Shown here one piece after another: positions 10,652 through 48,740 of a DNA stretch of 53,286 bases (position 1 is its first letter; each line of letters starts with the position of its first letter). The stretch comes from Candidatus Pacearchaeota archaeon (GTDB lineage Archaea; Nanobdellota; Nanobdellia; Pacearchaeales; GW2011-AR1): contig JAGLQO010000013.1 of assembly GCA_023136775.1 (NCBI GenBank), positions 1 through 53,286 of the forward strand, in the 5' to 3' direction. The notes beneath the pieces were generated by a model. It worked only from the letters and a program-made list of their open reading frames with translations. It searched no databases and was not told where the DNA came from. A program made the position numbers and the translations under genes.

Positions 10652-10745
10652 AAAAATTCTAAATAAAAACAGTTTATTAAAAAATATGTACTCAAAAATA
10701 TATCTTCAATCTCAATCAATCAATAACCAAAGCCCCACGGCAGAA

Positions 10746-10850
10746 ATTGCAGATTTAGCAGGTGAGTTCGCAGTGTAAAATTTTGTGTAGCGTGCTAACA
10801 CACGTAAACAAAATTTTACCAAGAAATCACCGCTAAAGCTGCAATTTCTT
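10746..10850 (-). repeat. ~100 bp long hairpin at the ATPase gene 3' end (family F)
   Basis: AGAAATTGCAG...CTGCAATTTCT and TAAAATTTTGT...ACAAAATTTTA arms. Confidence 0.85.
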
Positions 10851-14705: not shown

Positions 14706-14732
14706 TTCTAAGTTACATAACAAAAACCAGCA

Positions 14733-14835
14733 ATTTTAATTTTAGACAGATTTAGTCAAGGCGGAAGGTTGCGTAGCGTACATTGTACGCAAGTGTTCTT
14801 CCAACGCAGAATAAATCGTATAAAATTAAAATTAT
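14733..14835 (-). repeat. long hairpin downstream of a stop codon (family F-like)
   Basis: AATTTTAATTTTA ... TAAAATTAAAATT arms; inner GCGTACATTGTACGC. Confidence 0.7.
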
Positions 14836-15305
14836 TATTTTTTAAGTTGCCAGGCGACTACACCCGCTATTATTAATAAGAGTATCATACCAAACCAATC
14901 TGTTGACATCCAGGTTCTGACTAATGCCCAATTAATTGCAGTATTGAAAACATGTCCAGCAGATAAGACAAACAAAAGAATCATTATTCCAAATACTGCC
15001 CATCCAATCCACTTACTGTCCTTGAAAATACTCGGAGCATCACCTGGCAAAAAAGCCATTATTACAAATATAAAAAATAATACAACAACTCCAACACTAA
15101 ACCATGCAGATGAAAATTGAATAAATTCTACCAACTTTGCTTGAACAATAAAAAAACTAGCTAAAACAAACGAAATCAATAGCATAACAAATTCATTGCC
15201 ACCCAAAATTTCAGACTTCTTCAACAAAGCATAAACCACAACAAGCACTAATAAAAATGCAAAAATAGGAAGAAAATACCCAATCGTTGAAATTACTACA
15301 GCCAT
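14835..15305 (-). CDS. multi-TM membrane protein, paralog 1 of 3
   Basis: LPIFAFLLVLVVVYALLKKSEILGG; paralogous with the next two ORFs. Confidence 0.75.
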   Translation of the reverse strand: MAVVISTIGYFLPIFAFLLVLVVVYALLKKSEILGGNEFVMLLISFVLASFFIVQAKLVEFIQFSSAWFSVGVVVLFFIFVIMAFLPGDAPSIFKDSKWIGWAVFGIMILLFVLSAGHVFNTAINWALVRTWMSTDWFGMILLLIIAGVVAWQLKK

Positions 15306-16473: not shown

Positions 16474-16588
16474 CAAGCGCAGATTTAATTTTAGACGAGG
16501 GATTTCGCAGCGTTAAAGATTTTGCAGCGTACTGCAGTACGTAAAAAATTTTTAACCAAGAAATCACCGTATAAAATTAAATCAGCTC
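16474..16588 (-). repeat. long hairpin at a gene 3' end (family F)
   Basis: TAAAATTAAATC arm complementary to the gene end GATTTAATTTTA; core CGGTGATTTCTTGGTTAAAA shared with 10.8 kb. Confidence 0.85.
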
Positions 16589-16873
16589 GTCTTCTAGGGG
16601 GAGCATGTCTTCTTCCACATCTTGTGGAATTGGAACTGCATTCCTATTAATAATTATAATGTCGCCCATTGCTTTGATAAATTGATGTGGTACTATTATC
16701 CCTCTAGCTCCACCAAGAACATTTACCATTCCTGATTCTCTTGAAACTACGATTCTCCAACCATCAATTTTATTATCAATTAGATTAACTTCTTCAATCG
16801 TTCCGAATAAATCTCCAGAATCTGTATAAACTCGCTTCCCTATCGTCTCACTTAATTTCTTTATTTTTAACAT
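16577..16873 (-). CDS. PRC-barrel domain protein
   Basis: SETIGKRVYTDSGDLFGTIEEVNL...VPHQFIKAMGDIIII. Confidence 0.85.
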   Translation of the reverse strand: MLKIKKLSETIGKRVYTDSGDLFGTIEEVNLIDNKIDGWRIVVSRESGMVNVLGGARGIIVPHQFIKAMGDIIIINRNAVPIPQDVEEDMLPLEDELI

Positions 16874-17790: not shown

Positions 17791-17844
17791 CAAATGGCTC
17801 ACGGATTTACACAGACTCTTCTTTCGAAAAGTTCACGGATCCAA
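17791..17844 (-). repeat. dispersed repeat family A, reverse copy
   Basis: rc: ATCCGTGAACTTTTCGAAAGAAGAGTCTGTGTAAATCCGTGAGCC. Confidence 0.85.
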
Positions 17845-17880
17845 GACGCTAGCTCGTATATTACTTTTGTTTATTAAGTT

Positions 17881-17955
17881 CTGCCTTGAATCCGTGAATG
17901 AGGAACTCATCCGTGTAAATCCGTGAGCAAAAATTGCCCCCTTCCCCTGTCTTGA
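17881..17955 (+). repeat. dispersed repeat family A
   Basis: CTTGAATCCGTGAATGAGGAACTCATCCGTGTAAATCCGTGAGCAAAAATTGCC. Confidence 0.9.
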
Positions 17956-26959: not shown

Positions 26960-27022
26960 ATCGCCCGCTCAGTTTCTTCGCTCACTCCAAACCCTAGAGC
27001 AATTTTAATTTTAACCAAGAAA

Positions 27023-27763
27023 TTACTGCATAAATTCAGAAATTATTTTGGCACAAATTTTTATTGTTCTCATATCAAACAATTTATCCTTCGAAGGAAT
27101 AGCCTCGACAATATCCATAGCCTTCAAACTTTTAATCCTAAAAATCCTCTTCAACAAATAAAGCAATTCCTTAGAAGTCATTCCACCAACCTCTGGATAA
27201 CTTACCGCAGGAGCAAACGCAGGGTCAATAACATCAATATCAACCGAAACATAAACATCCCGCCCATTAGCTTTCTCAGTAATATAGTCCGCCGCAGCCT
27301 CCATATCATTAATCTCCGAAAAAACCTTAACATTTTTTTCAATCAAAAATCTCTCTTCTTCTGGCTCAATTTTTCTAGCCCCAACCAAAATAACATTCTC
27401 TGGATTAAACCCATCCTCAATTATCGCTCGAAGAAATTCTTCATGAGTAGGCTCTTTCATTGGAGGCATACAGTCAGCATGAGCATCAAACACAATCAAA
27501 AAAGCATTTTTATAATTTTCCCGGAAAGCCTTAAATATTGGATAAGTTATCGAATGGTCTCCCCCAACAAAACAAACTTTCTCCTGATTAGATAAAACCC
27601 CTCTAGCCTTATCTAAAATTTGTTCTTCAGACTTCTCAATATCGCTATTATCAACTTCTAATATCTCAAAATCTCGCTTAAGTTCCTTACCAATAGCCTT
27701 ACTCATATCTTCAGGACCCTTATGCCCAAGTGCATTAATACGCGGAACTCCAATAATTTTCAT
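27023..27763 (-). CDS. agmatinase/arginase-family ureohydrolase
   Basis: GGDHS, FDAHADC, SVDIDVIDPAFAPA. Confidence 0.92.
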   Translation of the reverse strand: MKIIGVPRINALGHKGPEDMSKAIGKELKRDFEILEVDNSDIEKSEEQILDKARGVLSNQEKVCFVGGDHSITYPIFKAFRENYKNAFLIVFDAHADCMPPMKEPTHEEFLRAIIEDGFNPENVILVGARKIEPEEERFLIEKNVKVFSEINDMEAAADYITEKANGRDVYVSVDIDVIDPAFAPAVSYPEVGGMTSKELLYLLKRIFRIKSLKAMDIVEAIPSKDKLFDMRTIKICAKIISEFMQ

Positions 27764-35856: not shown

Positions 35857-35985
35857 CCTGCCTTGAATCCGTGGGTATCCGTGTAAATCCGTGGATAAAA
35901 TTGCCTTCTTTTCCCTGCCTTGAATCCGTGGGTACCGAAGGTATCCGTGTAATCCGTGAGCTAAAAATTCGTCTTCCCTCCCCTC
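35857..35985 (+). repeat. two tandem family A copies
   Basis: CCTTGAATCCGTGGGTATCCGTGTAAATCCGTGG...; ...GTGGGTACCGAAGGTATCCGTG. Confidence 0.9.
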
Positions 35986-37264: not shown

Positions 37265-37440
37265 AATCATTGCCTCCAATCAGTGAGAATCCGTGTTAAT
37301 CCGTGGATAAATTTGTATTCTTGACTTGAATCCGTGAACGCGATAGCGTCCGTGTGAATCCGTGAGCCAAATTGTCTTCCTTCCCCTGTCTTGAATCCAC
37401 ATAATCAAAAAAATCCGTGGCTAAAATTGTATTCTTGCCT
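37265..37440 (+). repeat. cluster of family A copies/fragments
   Basis: GAATCCGTGAACGCGATAGCGTCCGTGTGAATCCGTGAGCC plus flanking partial copies. Confidence 0.85.
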
Positions 37441-37995: not shown

Positions 37996-38982
37996 CTACA
38001 CCTTCAACCCAATAGTTTTATTAGCATTCTTATTTTTAATCTTACTTTCTTGTCCTAAAACTTTCTCAAGTATTTTTATTTCATTTTGTATCTTAACCAT
38101 ATTTTCCTTATACCTTTTTTCCCGAAGTCTATAAGTTGCCGTTGTTATAGTCTTCGCATTAAAACAATTCTCCTGTGCTTGCTTAAGTAATTCCCTAGTA
38201 GAAACTAATTCAATCCTGAAATTAGATAACTTCTTCTCCTTAAGATACCTATTTACTTTTTTAGTTATTGGAACCGATATCCCCCCGAGGAATAAAAGCA
38301 CCAAAAGAATCTGCCACCAATATCGAACAAGAAACCCTTGAGTTGCCTTAATAGCAGATTTAATTCTTTGGCTTTCCGCAGCTGCTTGAGTTAATTCTAA
38401 ATTAGCATCACCAAGAATAAGTTCCGCATCATCATATCTCTCTCCCTCAAACGCAACCTTCGCCTCTTCAAAAATAACACGAGCATCATCAGTAATTACG
38501 CCATCTTTTTTATACTGTGCTTCTTTTTCTTCAAATAAAGAAATCTCGTCAAGAATTCTATAAGCCTGGTCCCTTCGCTGAACAATAACATAAGCAAGTT
38601 TCGCGGACTGAAAATAATCTTGAGTTTTTCTCTCGTAAGAAGGTGTTTCTTCTCCAATAACAATTAAATCCTCAAGATAAACTCCTTTAGGTCCATCTAT
38701 TTCTAATTTAAACAACTCAGTCAAATCCGAAGGAGTCATTCCAATAAAGTATCTCTTGGCTTCCAATAAAGTATCTTTAACAAAAAAACTAGAGAATCCC
38801 TCGGCCTCCATCTCGCTCACAAGACCTTCTGCTTTCATCAACCCACCCAACGCCTCTCCATAATTAACTTCCCGAACCTCATCATAAGACTGCGCAACAA
38901 CAAAACAAAAATTCATAACTAAAAACACAACTAAAACAGTCACCCCACATCCATTCTTTTTCGCATTCCAAATTCTATTCAT
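37996..38982 (-). CDS. membrane coiled-coil partner protein, module copy 1
   Basis: signal peptide, helical domain, RYWWQILLV TM, coiled-coil tail; ATGA overlap with giant gene; paralog of 49406-50344. Confidence 0.85.
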   Translation of the reverse strand: MNRIWNAKKNGCGVTVLVVFLVMNFCFVVAQSYDEVREVNYGEALGGLMKAEGLVSEMEAEGFSSFFVKDTLLEAKRYFIGMTPSDLTELFKLEIDGPKGVYLEDLIVIGEETPSYERKTQDYFQSAKLAYVIVQRRDQAYRILDEISLFEEKEAQYKKDGVITDDARVIFEEAKVAFEGERYDDAELILGDANLELTQAAAESQRIKSAIKATQGFLVRYWWQILLVLLFLGGISVPITKKVNRYLKEKKLSNFRIELVSTRELLKQAQENCFNAKTITTATYRLREKRYKENMVKIQNEIKILEKVLGQESKIKNKNANKTIGLKV

Positions 38983-41900
38983 TTTCGCATTGTCCTCTCT
39001 AAAAAAATTTTTACCTTATCACTCATATCATTCAAAAACTTAAGAAGCTTATATTTTTTTGTGTTTTTTTCTTTTCTATGTTTTTCTTCAAGTATAATTT
39101 TTTCTTCATCTAATTCCGATAGTCTTTCCTTCTCAAGATTATACAACCTCTTAAATTTCCTCTCCGTCAACTTCTCCTTATTAAAATAATCTTCTTGAGT
39201 TTTCACCATCATCTCATTTAACTCCCTCTTCTCCTTAACTAAATTCTTTATCTCTTGGTCAGTTCTCAAAATTCCAATACGCTTATTTCTAAGTTTAATC
39301 CTCAAATGTTTAAGATCATCCAATCTATTCTCATATTGAACTATAGCCTGCTTATATCTCTCTGGAGAAAAAGAACCCTTAGATAAATAACTAGTCTGCG
39401 ATTCTTCCATTAAGGTATTTATAGATTTCTCCTCTTTATCCAACCCCTTAAGTCTTTGATTAATAATAAATATCGTACTATGCTTATAACTCAAAAAAAG
39501 AACAATCAACAAAATAATCATAGAAATTATAATCAACCACCAATAGTTCACAATAACCCAAAGCAAATCAAACTTTCCCTTCGTCTCCAAAATTAACGCC
39601 AACTGAGCATCCTTAGCCCTATCCATTGCAGCCTCGAAATCCTCTCTCTCAAAAGCTTTTATAGCCAAAATTAAATTATTTTCAGTTTCGCTAACATCAA
39701 GCCATCTCAATTTTGCCTTCTCAACTTCACCTTGAATTTCTTTAATTAATAAATCCGCCTCGAATGCAGTTTTTGCAAGTGCCAAAATACGGTCAGTAAA
39801 TTCAAGCGTCAACTCATAATTCAAGTTCCCAAAAGCACTAGTTGCCTGTCTCAATAAATCCTCAATACTCCCTACAGGAAATCCAGCATCCCTCATCAAT
39901 AAAAGACTCTTTTTAGCATCATCTAACCCTTTTATAGCCTCATCACTACTTTTCTCAATCAATCCAAAAATAAGTGTTCTATATTCCAAAAAAGGCTTAG
40001 ACATAAATCCTGCAGCTTCACTATCCAAGGCAACAATGTCAGCACTAATTTCCAAAGTAATTTCATAATCTTGCTTCTCCAAATAAGGCGGAGCAAAAAT
40101 CTCAAAAGTATAATTCCTACTTTCTAAGAAATACAATCTTGCTTCTTCAGCAGGTCCCAATTTATGAATCCAAATTTGTGCAATCCCATTAGTTATGTCC
40201 CATAAAGTTATAGCAGAATCATTCACCCCGTCGCCATCCAAATCAATATTCTTAGATTCCTTCAGATCCAAACTCATATTAATAGGATTTGAGGAAATAA
40301 TAAAATATGCAGAATCTCCTCTAAGTTCCGACAACAAAACAGAATGTCCTCCCAGCTCTGTCAGATTAAACGGCAAACTTCCGCCCTGACCTGATAATCT
40401 TAAATTTCTACTTTCAACATAAACAAGTTTTTCAGGATCAAAGTCAAAAGATATCTTAACATATTGTGTCAAAAATCCCTGCATTTCTAAGTCCAAATTC
40501 TCAAAAACCGCATTCTCATAAAAATTGGTAATGGTAATTGGTAAAAACTCCGTAGTCCCTCTAACCAAAGAAAGCTTCTCAGTGGTATAAATCGTCTCGC
40601 TATCACTCTCAACCTTCTTTCCACTGGATACCTCAGTTGAAGTTGATGGTGGACTAGGAGTATCTCCTCCTCCAGAATCAGAATATTTAGAACTTGCCTG
40701 AACGCTCACAGTTACAGTATCGGCAAAAATCAATCCTAACTCTGTTAAATTCGCACCAGAAGCATTAATCGCAGTTGTACTAACAGTTACCACATAATCT
40801 CCAACAGGAGTATCTGTAGGAATCGTCACCTCTATATTATTCTCCGAACTATCCTCTGGGAAAAATTCTCCTTCAAAAGTTATGCTCTCAGACCCAAAAG
40901 TAACAACCCAATCCTCTGGTAAATCATAAAAGAACATAGTATCGTATGCGTCACCCTCTCCGATGTTTTCCAACTCTGCATTAAACTGCACCCCCGTAGC
41001 CCCTTGAATTACGACCAAACTTCCAGTACTTGGATTTAAAAATCTATTAACAAGAACGGGTTGATTCGGCGCAACAACAATAGATCCAGTAATTATTTTT
41101 GAAGAAGGCTCTGCATCTAACGTAGAACTACTAATATTTAATGTAACAACTTTTACTCCCGCCTGAGTTGCAGTATCATTTATAGACAAAACCTTGACCG
41201 CACCAGGGGATAAATTAAAATTTTCACTTTCATTATAAATAGTCTCATTAGAATCACTAGTTATATCAAAATCTAATGCAAAATCTCCAGCATTATTAAT
41301 AACAAAATCTTCAAAAGTTATATCCTCTAACAAACTTACACTTATAGGATCAAAAGACACAGGAGGCTCAGTTATCCAAGTATGATCGAATTCTATAGTT
41401 CTATTAATAACACCGCTAAAATCAGAATTGCCCACAGAATCATTTGCAAACAATCTTAAATTATAAATTCCGGGAACAGTCGTATTTAAAATACTAACAT
41501 AAAAACCTGAAGAATCATTAAACACCATACTAATGTTTGTATAATCAGTTGTATTCGTTAATTTATACTGGAAAATAACTGCCTCCAAAGAAGTATCATC
41601 TTCAGTTACATTAGCATTCACAGTTATATTTACACCCGGATCTAATCCATCAATCGAATTAGGATCCGTCGCTAAACTAATAAAATCAGGAGCAATATTA
41701 TCTATCGTAAAAACTCTTGTCTCGCTTAAATCTGAATTTCCTGAAGCATCCAAACAATTAATCGTCCAATTATATGTTCCATGAGGAAACTCACCAACAT
41801 CAAATACAGTAGGAACATTATTAACAACCATAGAATTGGTTTGATTCAATAAAGAATTTATCAAAACAGAACAATCAAGAGTAGAATCATAATTATCAAT

Positions 41901-44900
41901 CACAGTAAAATTAAGGTAGATACTTGAATTCATTACATTAGACAAATTAAAATTATTAATTGGAAGAATTAAAGTAACATCAGGATTTATTACATCGCCA
42001 ACACCAAATAAACTTTCATTTGTTTCACTGTTTCCACTTGTGTCATTTGCAAACCAACCAACATCATATTGTCCTGTCATAACAGTATCTGAAAAAGTAA
42101 AATAATAATTATCAGTTATATTGTTCACCCCAGCAAGAACAGCAGTTCCATTTGGATAGGTTATATTCGCTAAAACAGTACTTATTCCAATATCATCGCT
42201 CACACTAACATTACAAATAACACCCTGGCTTAAATTTGAATTTTCAGGACTACACCCCAAGTTCAACAAAACAGGAAGAGCAATATCATTGACATTAAAA
42301 TTATTAACTTCGGTTGAATTTAAATTTCCGCTTGTGTCGTTCGCAATAATTACCACATCATAAGACCCAGGCAAAGCTGGAGCGATGAATGAATTATTAT
42401 ATTTATCTCCGACGGTGTTGGTTAGGGTTAGTTGGATAACGGTTGAGTTTGGGTAGGTTATATTAGCTAAAACAATATTTACATTAAAGTCGTCAATTAC
42501 GTCAGTAGAAATTTCAATAATATCTGAAATGTTGTAATCGCTATTCGCTATTGGAGAAATTGAAGTTACATCGGGGTTCACTACATCATTGACATTAAAA
42601 TTATTAACTTCGGTTGAATTTAAATTTCCGCTTGTGTCGTTCGCAATAATTACCACATCATAAGACCCAGGCAAAGCTGGAGCGATGAATGAATTATTAT
42701 ATTTATCTCCGACGGTGTTGGTTAGGGTTAGTTGGATAACGGTTGAGTTTGGGTAGGTTATATTAGCTAAAACAACGTTTACATTAAAGTCGTCAATTAC
42801 GTCAGTAGAAATTTCAATAATATCTGAAATGTTGTAATCGCTATTCGCTATTGGAGAAATTGAAGTTACATCGGGGTTCACTACATCATTGACATTAAAT
42901 AAACTTTCATTTGTTTCACTGTTCCCACTCGTATCATTAGCAAACCAACTAACATTATATTGCCCAGTTAAAGAAGTTTCACTAAAAGAAAAATAATAAT
43001 TGTCAGTTACATTCGAAACAGCAACGGTAACCGAAGTTCCATTCGAATAAGTTACATCCGCCAAAACAGTACCAATACCAATATCATCAACAACCGTAAC
43101 ATTACAAACAACACTCTGACTTAAATTTAAATTTTCAGGACTACATCCAAGATTCAACAAGACAGGAGAAACAATATCCTCGACGCTAAAATTATTAACT
43201 TCGCTATCATTAATATTCCCACTAGAATCCCTAGCAATAATCTTTATCTCATAGGACCCAGGTAATGCTGGGGCGACAAAAGAATTATTATATTTGTTTC
43301 CAACAGTATTGGTTAAAGTTAGTTGGATAACAGTTGAGTTTGGGTAGGTTATATTTGCTAAAACAGTACTAATTAAATTACTATCAGTCACATCAGCTGC
43401 AACCTCAATAGTATTTGAAACATTATAAATTTCATTTTGTATTGGAAATAGCGCGGCAACATCAGGATTCACAGTATCAACATTAAATGTAAAATTAGAA
43501 ACCGCAAATATTTCATTACTAGAAATATCTTCAACCAAACAATTCCAAATATAATTTCCATCCACAATATTATTTATTATAAAATTACTTTCGTTTGAAA
43601 CCCCAGAAACATTTTGGGTTTCATTAATTCCAAAAGGCTGACCAATATTATGGTAAAAAGATATACTGCTCAAACCCGTATCATCCGTCGAATTACAAGT
43701 AAAAGTTATATCATTTAATTTTAAATTGGCATTATTTACAGGAGATATTAAATTGACCAAAGGCGAGTTACTCTCCTGAATACTAAAGCTTCTAACCTCA
43801 CTATCATTTAAATTATCACTTGTATCATTTGCAAATATCTCAATCTGATAAATTCCAGTCTCATTAACATTGCTAAAAGTAACATTATAAATTCCATCAA
43901 AATTACTATCTGTTAACTGAAGTCTAACAACAGTTAAATTTGGAAGAGTAAAATTAGCATAAACATATGAAACATTTATTTCATCACTCACATTAACAGT
44001 TAAACTAATATTTGCTAATTGTAAAAAATTACTTCCAATAGTTGGAGTCAATATTTCCACATCAGGGTTCATTATATCATTAACATTGAAATTACTAACC
44101 TCGGTTGAATTTAAATTCCCGCTTGTGTCGTTTGCAATTATTACCACATCATAAGATCCGAGTAAGGCTGGGGCAATAAAAGAATTATTATATTTATCTC
44201 CGACAGAATTGGTTAGGGTTAATTGGATAACAGTTGAGTTTGGGTAGGTTATATTGGCTAAAACAAAATCAACTTCTAAGTCATCGGTCACGTCAGTAGA
44301 AATTTCAATAATATCTGAAATGTTGTAATCGCTATTCGCTGTTGGGAAAACTGAAGTAACATCAGGGTTCATTATATCATTGACATTAAAATTACTAATC
44401 TCGGTTGAATTTAAATTTCCACTTGTGTCGTTTGCAATTATTACTATATCATAAGATCCGAGTAAGGCTGGGGCAATAAAAGAATTATTATATTTATCTC
44501 CGACAGAATTGGTTAGGGTTAATTGGATAACAGTTGAGTTTGGGTAGGTTATATTGGCTAAAACAAAATCAACTTCTAAGTCATCGGTCACGTCAGTAGA
44601 AATTTCAATAATATCTGAAATGTTGTAATCGCTATTCGCTGTTGGATTAATTGAAGTTACATCAGGGTTCATTACATCATTGACATTGAAATTACTCTCA
44701 CTCGTCTTAATATTCTCACCAGTATCATTTGCAAACCAACTAACATTATACTGTCCCGTCATAACAGTATTTGAAAAAGTAAAATAATAATTACTATCTA
44801 TATTATTCACTCCCATCAAGACAACTGTTCCATTAGGGTAAGTTACATTAGCCAAAACCAAACTAATGCCAATATCATCAACAACCGTAACATTACAAAC

Positions 44901-47900
44901 AACACTCTGACTTAAATTTAAATTACTAGGAACACATCCCAGATTTGTCAAAGTCAACGCAACATCCTCGACGCTAAAATTATTTATTTCACTTGAGTTT
45001 ACATTCCCACTAGAGTCATTTGCAATAATTTTTACCTCATAAGACCCAGACAAAGCTGGGGCGACAAAAGAATTATTATATTTATTATCAATAGAATTAC
45101 TTAAGGTTAATTGAACAACAGTTGAGTTTGGGTAGGTTATATTGGCTAAAACAAAATCAACCCCTAAGTCATCAGTCACATTAGCAGAAATCTCAATATT
45201 ATCTGTTACATTGTAGGCATCGTCCTCAATCGGAAGTACCCCAATTACAACTGGATTCAAAATATCCGAAACACTAAAATTGCTCACCTCTGTATCATTC
45301 AAATTCCCACTCGTGTCATTCGCAATAATTACTATATCATAAGATCCAAGTAAAGCTGGGGAAGTGAATGAATTATTATATTTATCTCCAACAGCGTTGG
45401 TTAAAATTAGTTGGATAACAGTTGAGTTTGGGTAGGTTATATTGGCTAAAACATCATCAATTAAATTATCATCAATTACGTCCGCTGCAATTTCAATAGT
45501 TTCACCAATACCAAAATCACTATTCAAAACAGGAACAACCGAAGTAACATTGGGACTAGTATACTCAGCTATAACAAAACTCACCACCTCACTTGAATTT
45601 ACATTTTGATAAAGACTCGTATCATTAACAACAATCCTGATAACATAATTACCATACATAATTGTATCCGTAAAAATTAAATTATAAACTGAAGTCACAT
45701 TAGTCATACCATACCCAATAGTTGTTCCATTAGGATAAGTTACATTAGCAAATACACTATCAAGCTCAATATTGTCAGTTATATTTACCGTAACATTCAC
45801 CGTATCTGAAATGTTATACATTTCTCCATCTACCAAAACAAGATCTTCAACAAGAGGTGTTGGGTCATAACGATACCAATCAAACATTGCATTTTCCTGT
45901 TTTCCATTTAAAACAGTAGTTGTTCCCTCAATAGGAGATGTAGCAATAGTTTGGAAAGAAGAACCATCCCATCTAATAAGACTTACATCCTCAAGTAAAT
46001 CCATCGCAACAACCATTATTTCATCCGTCGTCGGATGTTGAGAAAATCTAAGGCTTTTTATATCATCGCTTCCGAACACTGTAGTAATTGAAGTAAAGGT
46101 TAAATCCGCAGTGCTCCAAACATTCGGTTTTGTAAAATTAAAATAATCCATAGAAAGTGCATTTCTATCAACAAAACCAAATAACGCCCTAGTCCCTTCA
46201 TTGTTCCATGTACAATCAACATTAGCATTATTCGCCCCATTCAATTCAACAGAAGCATCCTCTACAGGTTCTCCTGCAAGAATAGTACTCCCATCCCACA
46301 TCCTTGCTTGCACATCTGATCCAGAATCTATCCAAATTATACCAATATAATCTGAATTTTTATCACTACACATCCTAACTGCACCAATTCCACCATCCCC
46401 AACATCTACAGTATTTTCTGCGCCCCAACTCCCCGTCGAATGAGTATAAGTTCTATAAGCCCAATTGCTTAAACTACCATAAGATACAATACCATCATTA
46501 CTTAACTCCTCCCAAGCAAACGTAAAATGCTCCTTAATATTTGAAATCATTCCAGTAAATAAAACATCTTTCGTACTATCAAAAGCTGTCCCATTCCAAG
46601 GTATCACATACAAACTACTTAAACTGTCATGCGCCAAAAGCATAATATCATTTGTCCCAGTTTTAGAAACCAACGAAACCCAATGAACAGTATTAGAAAA
46701 AGGAGTTGTTAATATCTGCTCACTAGAATAACCAGTTCCATTCCAAAGTCGATAAGCCAAATTAGAATCAGCAACGCTAGAACTCTCATAAACAATCAAA
46801 GCATTTCCAGAAATTCCCTCATATTCAATATCAAAAGCCCTATATGCTGAATTGGGAACACCCGTACTAACTTCCAACAAATTACCCCAACTCCCATCAT
46901 AAATCTGAACATTAACATCATTGGCATTATCTAACATCCCAACAATTACTTCATCTCTCTCATGACTCGCCTTCGTTACCGTCCAAATAATATTTGCTCC
47001 AACAGAATTTGCATCAACCAGCTCAGCACTAAAAACATTACTTTCATTCCAAGTCCTATACCTTGGAGTCTGAACATTTAATTCCTCATAAGCAATAAAA
47101 CCATCAGCCTGAGTAAAAGTGATATAATCATCATGGATATAATCAAACTCCAAAAAAGAATTAACATCAGGGTCAGCACTCGAAGAATTATCAGGGTCAT
47201 CATAATGAACTTTTCTAATCTTAAAATCAAACACACTAGTAGGCTCCGTTAAATTATCCACAATTATATACAAAAGATCCTCCCTATTAGAAATTCCAGA
47301 TTTTCCAACATGTTGTCCTGTCTCAGTTTCATAAATATCAAAATAAGCCAAAGTATCATTACTCCGAACATAAACATCAATAACTCTTCCATTGGTCAAA
47401 TTAGATTCAAACCAAACCCTAACAGACTCTCCCGCATAAATAGCTTCACTCCAAACACCGTCGGTAACCGAAACGTCATCAAAAATATTAGAAATCTCAA
47501 CTCCATTCTCGTCCAAATGAATAGCATCAATTGCAATAATTTCAACAAGGTCATAAACCTGAACTGACAAATGCGGAACAACCCACTCGATATAATCAGC
47601 ATAATTATCCCCATCAAAATCGTAAGGAATAAAGTCAACTTCCACACGAATCCCTTTAGCTTTATTTTTCCCATCCATCATCTCCATAACTTCAGCATCA
47701 ATATCCTCATCTTCTTCCGACTCACCTCCTACCTGTTGCCCGTCACCCCCGATATCAGCGTACCAATACAACTTAAATTCAATCTCATCCATTTTCATAT
47801 CCATATCTTCCACCACGCTGTACGCCAAAATATCACTATAATTCAATTCACTCGGAGCCGAAACAATAATCCTCTTACCATTCAATACCGAAGTCTCATT

Positions 47901-48740
47901 CGCAACAGGCGCTTCAGTATAATATTCAACCGCAACCCTTTCCTCCTGTTCGACGATATCCGCAACTTCTATAATCACAGCGTCGTCAGTTACAATAATA
48001 TTCTCCGAAATATCTTCCTCTAATATAACCTGTCCCGTAATCGTAAAGCTCGTCAACCAATCCCAAAACCTAGTCAAAATACCTCCCCCTTCTCTAATAT
48101 CCAAAGCAACATTCCCAGTTAAAACATTTTTTTTAACAATATCTTTTCTATCACTTTTCTCAACAATTTTATCATATTTCTTTATATCCTCGACGGCGGC
48201 AGTAATTTCCTCATCAATTAAAATAGAAATATCCTCCGCCCCCTTCGGCAACTTAACGTCTACCTTTTTATCACTAACATTAACTATCTTAATCCATTTC
48301 ACCGGACGACCAATTACCGCCCTATATTGTAAAGTAGAAACACTAGATTCATCAACCACAGTCGAAGAAACATCTAAAACAGACTCCTCAGCTTCTTGAG
48401 AAATGTTCTCTACTTCATCAACATGACTTTGATTAGTTAAATTATTCTGAAGAGTTTCTTCTGTAACGTTAAAAAGTTCAGTTTCATTTAATGTTTCAGT
48501 CACATTTTCAATAGACAAATTTTCAAAAACATCAGAAGAAACATTCTCAAGACTTTCATTCGTATAATTTAACGTTTCATTTGCTGCCGAAACCAGCAAA
48601 ATAGACGCGAAAAAAATACTTGCAATTATCGTCAGAAATGAAAAAATAAATTTTTTATTAACATTAATTGTCTTCAATGCCACCATACCTCCTGATTCGG
48701 ACAAAACAAACATCCCTAGAGATATCCATACTAACAGCAA
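38979..48740 (-). CDS. giant (~3250 aa) Ig/cadherin-like repeat surface protein with C-terminal TM and cytosolic coiled coil
   Basis: N-terminal signal, many ~100-aa NPDVTS..PNSTVIQLTLTN..NDTSGNLNSTE repeats, VNYWWLIIIS TM. Confidence 0.92.
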   Translation of the reverse strand: MLLVWISLGMFVLSESGGMVALKTINVNKKFIFSFLTIIASIFFASILLVSAANETLNYTNESLENVSSDVFENLSIENVTETLNETELFNVTEETLQNNLTNQSHVDEVENISQEAEESVLDVSSTVVDESSVSTLQYRAVIGRPVKWIKIVNVSDKKVDVKLPKGAEDISILIDEEITAAVEDIKKYDKIVEKSDRKDIVKKNVLTGNVALDIREGGGILTRFWDWLTSFTITGQVILEEDISENIIVTDDAVIIEVADIVEQEERVAVEYYTEAPVANETSVLNGKRIIVSAPSELNYSDILAYSVVEDMDMKMDEIEFKLYWYADIGGDGQQVGGESEEDEDIDAEVMEMMDGKNKAKGIRVEVDFIPYDFDGDNYADYIEWVVPHLSVQVYDLVEIIAIDAIHLDENGVEISNIFDDVSVTDGVWSEAIYAGESVRVWFESNLTNGRVIDVYVRSNDTLAYFDIYETETGQHVGKSGISNREDLLYIIVDNLTEPTSVFDFKIRKVHYDDPDNSSSADPDVNSFLEFDYIHDDYITFTQADGFIAYEELNVQTPRYRTWNESNVFSAELVDANSVGANIIWTVTKASHERDEVIVGMLDNANDVNVQIYDGSWGNLLEVSTGVPNSAYRAFDIEYEGISGNALIVYESSSVADSNLAYRLWNGTGYSSEQILTTPFSNTVHWVSLVSKTGTNDIMLLAHDSLSSLYVIPWNGTAFDSTKDVLFTGMISNIKEHFTFAWEELSNDGIVSYGSLSNWAYRTYTHSTGSWGAENTVDVGDGGIGAVRMCSDKNSDYIGIIWIDSGSDVQARMWDGSTILAGEPVEDASVELNGANNANVDCTWNNEGTRALFGFVDRNALSMDYFNFTKPNVWSTADLTFTSITTVFGSDDIKSLRFSQHPTTDEIMVVAMDLLEDVSLIRWDGSSFQTIATSPIEGTTTVLNGKQENAMFDWYRYDPTPLVEDLVLVDGEMYNISDTVNVTVNITDNIELDSVFANVTYPNGTTIGYGMTNVTSVYNLIFTDTIMYGNYVIRIVVNDTSLYQNVNSSEVVSFVIAEYTSPNVTSVVPVLNSDFGIGETIEIAADVIDDNLIDDVLANITYPNSTVIQLILTNAVGDKYNNSFTSPALLGSYDIVIIANDTSGNLNDTEVSNFSVSDILNPVVIGVLPIEDDAYNVTDNIEISANVTDDLGVDFVLANITYPNSTVVQLTLSNSIDNKYNNSFVAPALSGSYEVKIIANDSSGNVNSSEINNFSVEDVALTLTNLGCVPSNLNLSQSVVCNVTVVDDIGISLVLANVTYPNGTVVLMGVNNIDSNYYFTFSNTVMTGQYNVSWFANDTGENIKTSESNFNVNDVMNPDVTSINPTANSDYNISDIIEISTDVTDDLEVDFVLANITYPNSTVIQLTLTNSVGDKYNNSFIAPALLGSYDIVIIANDTSGNLNSTEISNFNVNDIMNPDVTSVFPTANSDYNISDIIEISTDVTDDLEVDFVLANITYPNSTVIQLTLTNSVGDKYNNSFIAPALLGSYDVVIIANDTSGNLNSTEVSNFNVNDIMNPDVEILTPTIGSNFLQLANISLTVNVSDEINVSYVYANFTLPNLTVVRLQLTDSNFDGIYNVTFSNVNETGIYQIEIFANDTSDNLNDSEVRSFSIQESNSPLVNLISPVNNANLKLNDITFTCNSTDDTGLSSISFYHNIGQPFGINETQNVSGVSNESNFIINNIVDGNYIWNCLVEDISSNEIFAVSNFTFNVDTVNPDVAALFPIQNEIYNVSNTIEVAADVTDSNLISTVLANITYPNSTVIQLTLTNTVGNKYNNSFVAPALPGSYEIKIIARDSSGNINDSEVNNFSVEDIVSPVLLNLGCSPENLNLSQSVVCNVTVVDDIGIGTVLADVTYSNGTSVTVAVSNVTDNYYFSFSETSLTGQYNVSWFANDTSGNSETNESLFNVNDVVNPDVTSISPIANSDYNISDIIEISTDVIDDFNVNVVLANITYPNSTVIQLTLTNTVGDKYNNSFIAPALPGSYDVVIIANDTSGNLNSTEVNNFNVNDVVNPDVTSISPIANSDYNISDIIEISTDVIDDFNVNIVLANITYPNSTVIQLTLTNTVGDKYNNSFIAPALPGSYDVVIIANDTSGNLNSTEVNNFNVNDIALPVLLNLGCSPENSNLSQGVICNVSVSDDIGISTVLANITYPNGTAVLAGVNNITDNYYFTFSDTVMTGQYDVGWFANDTSGNSETNESLFGVGDVINPDVTLILPINNFNLSNVMNSSIYLNFTVIDNYDSTLDCSVLINSLLNQTNSMVVNNVPTVFDVGEFPHGTYNWTINCLDASGNSDLSETRVFTIDNIAPDFISLATDPNSIDGLDPGVNITVNANVTEDDTSLEAVIFQYKLTNTTDYTNISMVFNDSSGFYVSILNTTVPGIYNLRLFANDSVGNSDFSGVINRTIEFDHTWITEPPVSFDPISVSLLEDITFEDFVINNAGDFALDFDITSDSNETIYNESENFNLSPGAVKVLSINDTATQAGVKVVTLNISSSTLDAEPSSKIITGSIVVAPNQPVLVNRFLNPSTGSLVVIQGATGVQFNAELENIGEGDAYDTMFFYDLPEDWVVTFGSESITFEGEFFPEDSSENNIEVTIPTDTPVGDYVVTVSTTAINASGANLTELGLIFADTVTVSVQASSKYSDSGGGDTPSPPSTSTEVSSGKKVESDSETIYTTEKLSLVRGTTEFLPITITNFYENAVFENLDLEMQGFLTQYVKISFDFDPEKLVYVESRNLRLSGQGGSLPFNLTELGGHSVLLSELRGDSAYFIISSNPINMSLDLKESKNIDLDGDGVNDSAITLWDITNGIAQIWIHKLGPAEEARLYFLESRNYTFEIFAPPYLEKQDYEITLEISADIVALDSEAAGFMSKPFLEYRTLIFGLIEKSSDEAIKGLDDAKKSLLLMRDAGFPVGSIEDLLRQATSAFGNLNYELTLEFTDRILALAKTAFEADLLIKEIQGEVEKAKLRWLDVSETENNLILAIKAFEREDFEAAMDRAKDAQLALILETKGKFDLLWVIVNYWWLIIISMIILLIVLFLSYKHSTIFIINQRLKGLDKEEKSINTLMEESQTSYLSKGSFSPERYKQAIVQYENRLDDLKHLRIKLRNKRIGILRTDQEIKNLVKEKRELNEMMVKTQEDYFNKEKLTERKFKRLYNLEKERLSELDEEKIILEEKHRKEKNTKKYKLLKFLNDMSDKVKIFLERTMRK
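42289..42888 (-). repeat. two near-identical 300 bp tandem units inside the giant gene
   Basis: exact 300 bp offset; only a few substitutions seen. Confidence 0.93.
44090..44689 (-). repeat. second pair of 300 bp tandem units inside the giant gene
   Basis: CATCAGGGTTCATTATATCAT recurs at exact 300 bp offset. Confidence 0.9.

Follow-up and report, generated by a model that had tools for sequence, protein, structure and literature searches.

The window, by which we mean the whole stretch of 53,286 nucleotides that was analysed, belongs to a genome of 1.2 Mb in 38 contigs and carries on its minus strand a gene for a T2SSE/type IV secretion ATPase whose end forms one side of a hairpin (copy A, Table 1). 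Read on the minus strand, the gene finishes AAG AAA TTG CAG CTT TAG and passes directly into CGGTGATTTCTTGGT; its last four codons and stop (KLQL-stop) constitute the gene-side arm, and the far arm pairs with this coding end and stop codon (AAATTGCAGCTTTAG). An inverted repeat search finds outer arms of 18 nt that are 94% complementary, with one mismatch and 72 nt between them, together with an inner pair at 10775-10789/10805-10819. A preliminary description of this DNA had read the outer arm as an inverted copy of the end and stop codon of the ATPase gene, which these 18-bp arms confirm; the hairpin it had placed at 10746-10850 is also present, but the stem spans 10742-10849. Copy A folds strongly both as RNA (-52.3 kcal/mol, z -8.1 against shuffles) and as DNA (-32.7, z -9.3 against shuffles). 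An orthologue of the ATPase in G122, which is free of the element, ends ...EKEVKKFDL* at the same place (DNA end GAAGAAATTTGATTTGTAG), and since it closes on KKFDL-stop without any hairpin, copy A has a native gene-side arm, and its far arm is the derived one.

The core of copy A was said to be shared with a site at 16.5 kb, and the exact core CGGTGATTTCTTGGT does recur there, at 16555. It is found four times genome-wide and not at all in a reversed-pattern control, each copy lying after a stop codon and having outer arms matched to its own locus (AGAAATTGCAGCTTTAGC; GATTTAATTTTA; AATTTTTATTTTA; AGTTGATATTTTAGGC). Copy B adjoins the 3' side of a PRC-barrel gene (16577-16873), and a third copy in the window lies directly after the stop of the open reading frame 14835-15305, with the only exact GTTATRTAAC of the window behind it. 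A probable remnant near 27.0 kb sits after an arginase-family gene. Covariance models bring the number of copies in this genome to about 24.

Table 1. Features of the hairpin element and its neighbourhood in the window
Feature	Position	Strand	Evidence
T2SSE/type IV secretion ATPase gene, 763 aa	10833..13124	(-)	Pfam PF00437, E 3.2e-14
Copy A, outer arm on the gene side (left), AGAAATTGCAGCTTTAGC, native and coding	10832..10849	(-)	Inverted repeat search, orthologue comparison
Copy A, 72-nt conserved core, type 1, internal loops TTG/GCTGC	10760..10831	(-)	Covariance models R1-R3
Copy A, right outer arm GCTAAATCTGCAATTTCT, inverted gene-end copy, 17/18	10742..10759	(-)	Inverted repeat search, family-wide statistics
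Copy A, right tail, GTTAT at +17	10723..10741	(-)	Tail-motif search
Third window copy, type 2 core (TTCTGCGTTGGAAGAAC...)	14732..14833	(-)	Covariance-model match
Tail motif GTTATGTAAC of third window copy	14712..14721	(-)	Motif search
Copy B, entire hairpin with type 1 core at 16497-16568	16481..16584	(-)	Arms TGATTTAATTTTATAC / GTCTAAAATTAAATCT
Probable remnant CAGTAATTTCTTGGTTAAAATTAAAATTGC, left core joined to right arm	26999..27028	(-)	Judged from sequence

The window also harbors a second repeat family, GCTCACGGATTTACACGGAT..ATCCACGGATTCAAGGC, at 17800-17925, 23276, 29085, 30502, 35867-35893 and 37279-37364. Nine of its ten matches are on the minus strand, as the hairpins are, several follow closely behind gene ends, and the pair at 17.8-17.9 kb can form a hairpin of about 130 nt. 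A separate open frame of 3253 aa, whose internal repeats measure about 300 nt, occupies 38979-48740.

The hairpin family was searched for with a covariance model of the four exact-core copies and then with a model of 52 copies. Copies are present in 13-14 of the 16 genomes of the genus (R1/R2 models; 13 with the 52-copy model), G129, G136 and G138 being those without it, and the 52-copy model places further copies in five genomes outside the genus within a family sample of 138. Archaeal SSU and LSU rRNA in genomes of the genus, together with genes for EF-1alpha, Rad51/RadA and L24e, identify these relatives as archaea. The unit is about 104 nt long, also across genera, and comprises the 72-nt core, conserved internal loops and 16-bp outer arms in an almost ungapped alignment. 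In this alignment 93.8% of cells are paired and double changes number 339, against 98 in shuffles, while shifting the register along the alignment destroys the pairing. The core occurs in subtypes, such as TTCTTGGTAAAA..TTTTACGCTGCGAA and CTTCGTTGGAAGAAC..CAACCTTCCGCC, which have in common the apex CTYRYGTRC..GYACRC and the conserved internal loops. A core-only model retrieves essentially the same copies, and practically every core match was already known with its arm, so the arms are not an artefact of ascertainment. Single copies harbor an extra insert near the apex (L055 1346-1488, G000 C30), beside the left loop (L151, G142 C97) or within the right arm (L123, RadA of G147). Rfam has no family whose match spans the hairpin at the gathering score, a relaxed threshold giving only sub-cutoff chance matches, and an exact-pattern search of IMG/VR with three subtypes found nothing. 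The equivalent scan of GTDB genomes returned a single match, in a receiver-domain gene, which was judged to be chance. Within the family, a fixed sequence pattern that allowed a single mismatch failed to pick up any of the relatives, which were detected by the covariance model alone. Searches of an open-access literature library turned up no account of an element of this kind.

The element is addressed to gene ends. Behind protein genes, counted as open reading frames of 60 codons or more, there are 98 copies, and for all 98 the distance from the hairpin foot to the end of the stop codon falls within -17 to +18 nt, with offsets of +2 in 45 copies, +8 in 14 and +15 in 7. The 3' ends of RNA genes are also occupied, namely those of a tRNA (L161) and of 16S rRNA (L163, L170), and at L174 and L066 these 16S and tRNA ends were recognised by eye from their sequences. 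Copies stand one at a time behind housekeeping genes dispersed over the genome, and the hosts include EF-1alpha, S7, S10, L24e, SecY, Rad51/RadA, an RPA-like protein, GAPDH, ProRS, GyrA, HerA and T2SSE/T2SSF proteins. A Group I intron (Rfam RF00028) is located just upstream of the hairpin-bearing tRNA-like end, at L066 1111-1314. In three species, similar sequence precedes copies at L053 (near 1330), L063 (near 1380) and L077 (near 1356); no long co-oriented open reading frame ends at these three loci and they have no Rfam match, and the sequence is possibly a non-coding RNA gene of a new kind.

Whether the distal arm always mirrors the local gene end was checked on about 110 copies, and it does. 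Over the 16 positions outward from the core, pairing of a copy's own arms ranges from 0.71 to 0.98 per position, compared with 0.27 to 0.97 when arms are swapped between copies, and own-arm pairing exceeds the swap at every one of the 16, by a narrow margin in the case of the most conserved position. The arms had been called gene-specific, and this is clearest where they overlap coding sequence, but most copies have arms that resemble an AT-rich family consensus, AATTTTNATTYTTAGC. In 28 copies the left arm shares 5 nt or more with coding sequence, and of the 286 coding positions involved 236 (0.83) are mirrored in the far arm, against 0.49-0.57 in swaps and a maximum of 0.63 in 5000. Departures of the left arm from the consensus are matched in the right arm in 133 of 203 cases overall and in 50 of 68 within coding parts. 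Individual arms mirrored at 16/16 positions include AATTTAGTTTCTTAGC in G140 and AGTATGAATTCTTAGC in G088, and the wholly coding arm AAAACAGATTCTCAAT of this genome is mirrored at 15/16.

The mirroring also has a sharp limit. In 92 copies, self pairing is 0.92 at position 16 and drops to 0.34 at position 17, where swapped arms give 0.18, and to 0.20, which is chance, at position 18; both values are at chance beyond, and no mirroring outside the arm exceeds the swapped-pair controls. In this genome the hairpin is followed by a tail, GTTGGTTTTTGTTATGTAACTT; of the 24 copies, 15 have GTTAT no more than 24 nt away, compared with 3% of controls. The motif lies mostly at +10 or +11, whereas that of copy A is out of register. 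Since the right arm is specific to its locus yet stands between a shared core and a shared tail, it must have been rewritten at or after dispersal. The suggestion that an element or a template switch had copied the local gene end in inverted orientation stands in that the arms mirror the native gene end, but the copying is not open-ended: it stops at 16-17 nt. This limit, together with the near-constant length, means that a template switch alone is insufficient and that a structural ruler, or selection for a DNA hairpin of fixed length, is also required. The pairing of the arms could be held by selection rather than by copying.

The nature of the mismatches distinguishes pairing as DNA from pairing as RNA. 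In the arms, G.T mismatches number 27 and A.C mismatches 33, whereas tRNA acceptor stems of the same genomes have 33 and 1, a control that is somewhat generous because the tRNA finder itself favours pairable stems. With G.T no commoner than A.C, the arms pair as DNA and not as RNA. The core helices, unlike the arms, have 74 G.T and 23 A.C, mostly owing to one conserved G.T column. Intrinsic terminators are characterised by a T-run directly after the stem, and only 15% of copies have one, against 8% of controls.

Orientation is equally constrained. In each of the 19 contigs with more than one copy, as counted from matches of the 52-copy model, all copies are co-oriented and none is discordant. 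Wherever skew was measured (GC skew 0.17-0.47) they are always on the G-rich strand, from which, rather than from a mapped origin, the leading strand is assigned here. Gene co-orientation in these contigs is only 60-87%, and for 42 copies in seven contigs to show no exception has P = 4e-7 given the gene orientations. Of the EF-1alpha, RadA and S10 orthologues, 12 of the 35 on the leading strand and none of the 6 on the lagging strand carry the element, a preference that is suggestive only. The single orientation could be due in part to the location of highly expressed genes on the leading strand. In sampled stretches pooled per contig, G140 C1/C3/C4 and G122 C1 (both within L087-L106) and the window have very strong GC skew, of 0.34-0.47, with an opposite AT skew.

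Orthologous gene ends differ in whether they carry the element. In some species it is found between the stop codon of EF-1alpha and a conserved GGTC..GACC hairpin (G000; as a GGGC..GCCC variant in G143), so that the gene keeps its own hairpin and T-tract downstream of the element, and in other species the element is absent and the stop abuts the GGTC..GACC hairpin. On a three-protein species tree, which is too weakly supported to date gains, EF-1alpha, RadA and S10 have a patchy presence that corresponds to 4, 3 and 2 changes, respectively. The same gene ends are used recurrently by different cores: over 21 orthologous gene-end groups, core identity is 0.54 for the same gene across species, 0.51 for non-orthologous genes and 0.59 within a genome, and the nearest core belongs to an orthologue in only 5 of 62 copies. 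To judge from these identities, either the same gene ends have been re-invaded or cores have been exchanged within genomes. Direct repeats of at least 10 nt flank 4.4% of copies, compared with 2.7% of swapped pairs, and there is no systematic target duplication. At the EF-1alpha end of G035 (L186), the gene end AAACTTTAA is repeated after the element, directly before GGTC..GACC; this is possibly one direct target duplication, the sole case seen.

Taken together, the evidence points to an undescribed, strand-specific element that acts at the level of DNA. Our preferred reading, to which we give somewhat less than an even chance, is that of a dispersed single-stranded DNA hairpin of one archaeal genus, with a far arm rewritten to match each gene end and a foot at fixed length. 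The unit is the 72-nt core with, in this genome, the right tail, and it lies where leading-strand genes finish. In the mechanism that we propose, the sense strand, serving as template for lagging-strand synthesis, would fold into the hairpin as single-stranded DNA. Once the core had been placed at a gene end, the 3' side of the hairpin would be extended or corrected with the gene-side strand as template, and snap-back or template-switch copying would make the right arm a Watson-Crick mirror of the gene end. A putative protein bound to the conserved internal loops would measure about 16 bp, thereby fixing the foot of the stem and holding the arm length. We infer this copying step, the ruler protein and the single-stranded mobility. 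A more specific version is mobile DNA of a new type, in which the hairpin core would travel in single-stranded form on the lagging-strand template, be addressed to gene 3' ends and, through snap-back synthesis governed by the protein ruler, write a fixed 16-nt inverted copy of its target on arrival, a mirror target duplication; this is in our estimation unlikely. The search for a trans-acting enzyme found none, Y1 transposases, the only family tested, not tracking the element, and the search for a long autonomous form or parent with the exact left-half pattern gave matches that all fell at known hairpin copies. If the right arm is written by fixed-length copying, it would represent a chemistry of insertion or maintenance not known before. 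If template switching alone is responsible, the family is a natural record of it, since strand, gene and boundary are known for more than 100 copies and the stem-perfecting step can be measured in them. The element in addition provides reduced archaeal genomes with a mark at gene ends that is specific to one strand.

A purely mutational origin is rather improbable. The family would then be a dispersed imperfect palindrome at leading-strand genes with high transcription, where template switching during replication (quasipalindrome correction) makes the arms alike again and again, without a protein that recognises the hairpin. Template switching creates and maintains perfect stems with a strand bias (PMC8794818, PMC7202029), quasipalindrome mutations in yeast require high transcription and depend on the direction of replication (PMC3820800), and the process explains both the Watson-Crick-only arms and the copied gene ends. 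On its own, however, it leaves unexplained the placement at gene ends and the dispersal of the core, and it is at odds with the sharp stop of the mirroring in 92 copies, the length of about 104 nt across genera and the conservation of internal loops and apex. A role in RNA, whereby mRNA, tRNA and rRNA would be terminated, protected or processed at their 3' ends through a hairpin in the transcript, and selection for RNA pairing would keep the arms complementary, is to be doubted a little more. The exact placement at stop codons and at mature tRNA and 16S ends, the many core-gene hosts (EF-1alpha, S7, S10, L24e, SecY, RadA, GAPDH and ProRS) and the strong RNA fold of copy A would all suit it. 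Selection for RNA pairing does not fit, however, because of the G.T data, which contrast with those of tRNA stems even though the G- and T-rich mutation bias of the strand is expected to raise G.T, and because of the strand rule that confines the element to leading-strand genes. The scarcity of T-runs after the hairpin, the retention by EF-1alpha of its own hairpin and T-tract, and the lack of an Rfam match also count against it. Chance or an assembly artefact is scarcely credible: AT-rich arms inflate chance pairing, and nothing further favours it, whereas the element recurs in thirteen genome assemblies and at orthologous gene ends and withstands the shuffle and swap controls.

Membership of a known single-stranded DNA hairpin system, either REP/RAYT or one resembling integron attC, is very improbable. 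The hairpins are, as such a system would have them, folded, strand-specific and intergenic after genes, and they follow the lagging-strand-template logic of IS200/IS605 and REP (PMC6006769, PMC3733652). REP and REPIN sequences are repeated palindromes that are dispersed, lie for the most part 3' of coding regions, fold as single-stranded DNA, are mobilised by RAYT (TnpAREP, a Y1 HUH enzyme) and are tied to lagging-strand-template chemistry (PMC3733652, PMC6006769). The hairpin family is likewise dispersed, palindromic and downstream of genes, but it is about 104 nt long, against only 20-40 bp for REPs (PMC3733652). It further differs in an arm sequence set by the neighbouring gene, in one orientation per contig and in the lack of a Y1 gene in most carriers. 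The REP foot tetranucleotide (GTAG/GTGG or CGTC) is at background 5' of the hairpin foot, in 1 of 110 copies against 2.5%. The Y1 transposase was considered as the driver and rejected, PF01797 being found in 6 of the 16 genomes and absent from the copy-rich G140, G122, G035, G139 and G146. Integron attC sites are conserved in structure rather than sequence, lie right after a stop codon and are relevant on one strand. The hairpins resemble them in being strand-specific and just behind stop codons, but are scattered behind housekeeping genes and 16S rRNA, form no cassette array and are of constant length; the attC boxes RYYYAAC and GTTRRRY (R'/R'') are present at both feet in 0 of 110 copies.

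Like MITEs, ERIC, RUP and BOX elements, the hairpins are small, non-coding, dispersed and palindromic, but unlike them they were found with no target-site duplication, conserved terminal-arm sequence or long parent. Among common dispersed palindromes, we know of none that takes a host gene end as its outer arm and pairs by DNA rules. Quasipalindrome correction is a mutational process and not an element, and predicts no 16-bp limit, conserved loops or gene-end addressing. It nevertheless shares with the hairpin family the copying of one arm into the other, the strand bias and the association with highly transcribed DNA (PMC8794818, PMC3820800, PMC7202029), and the arms of the family have its hallmark, Watson-Crick identity that extends to locus-specific sequence.
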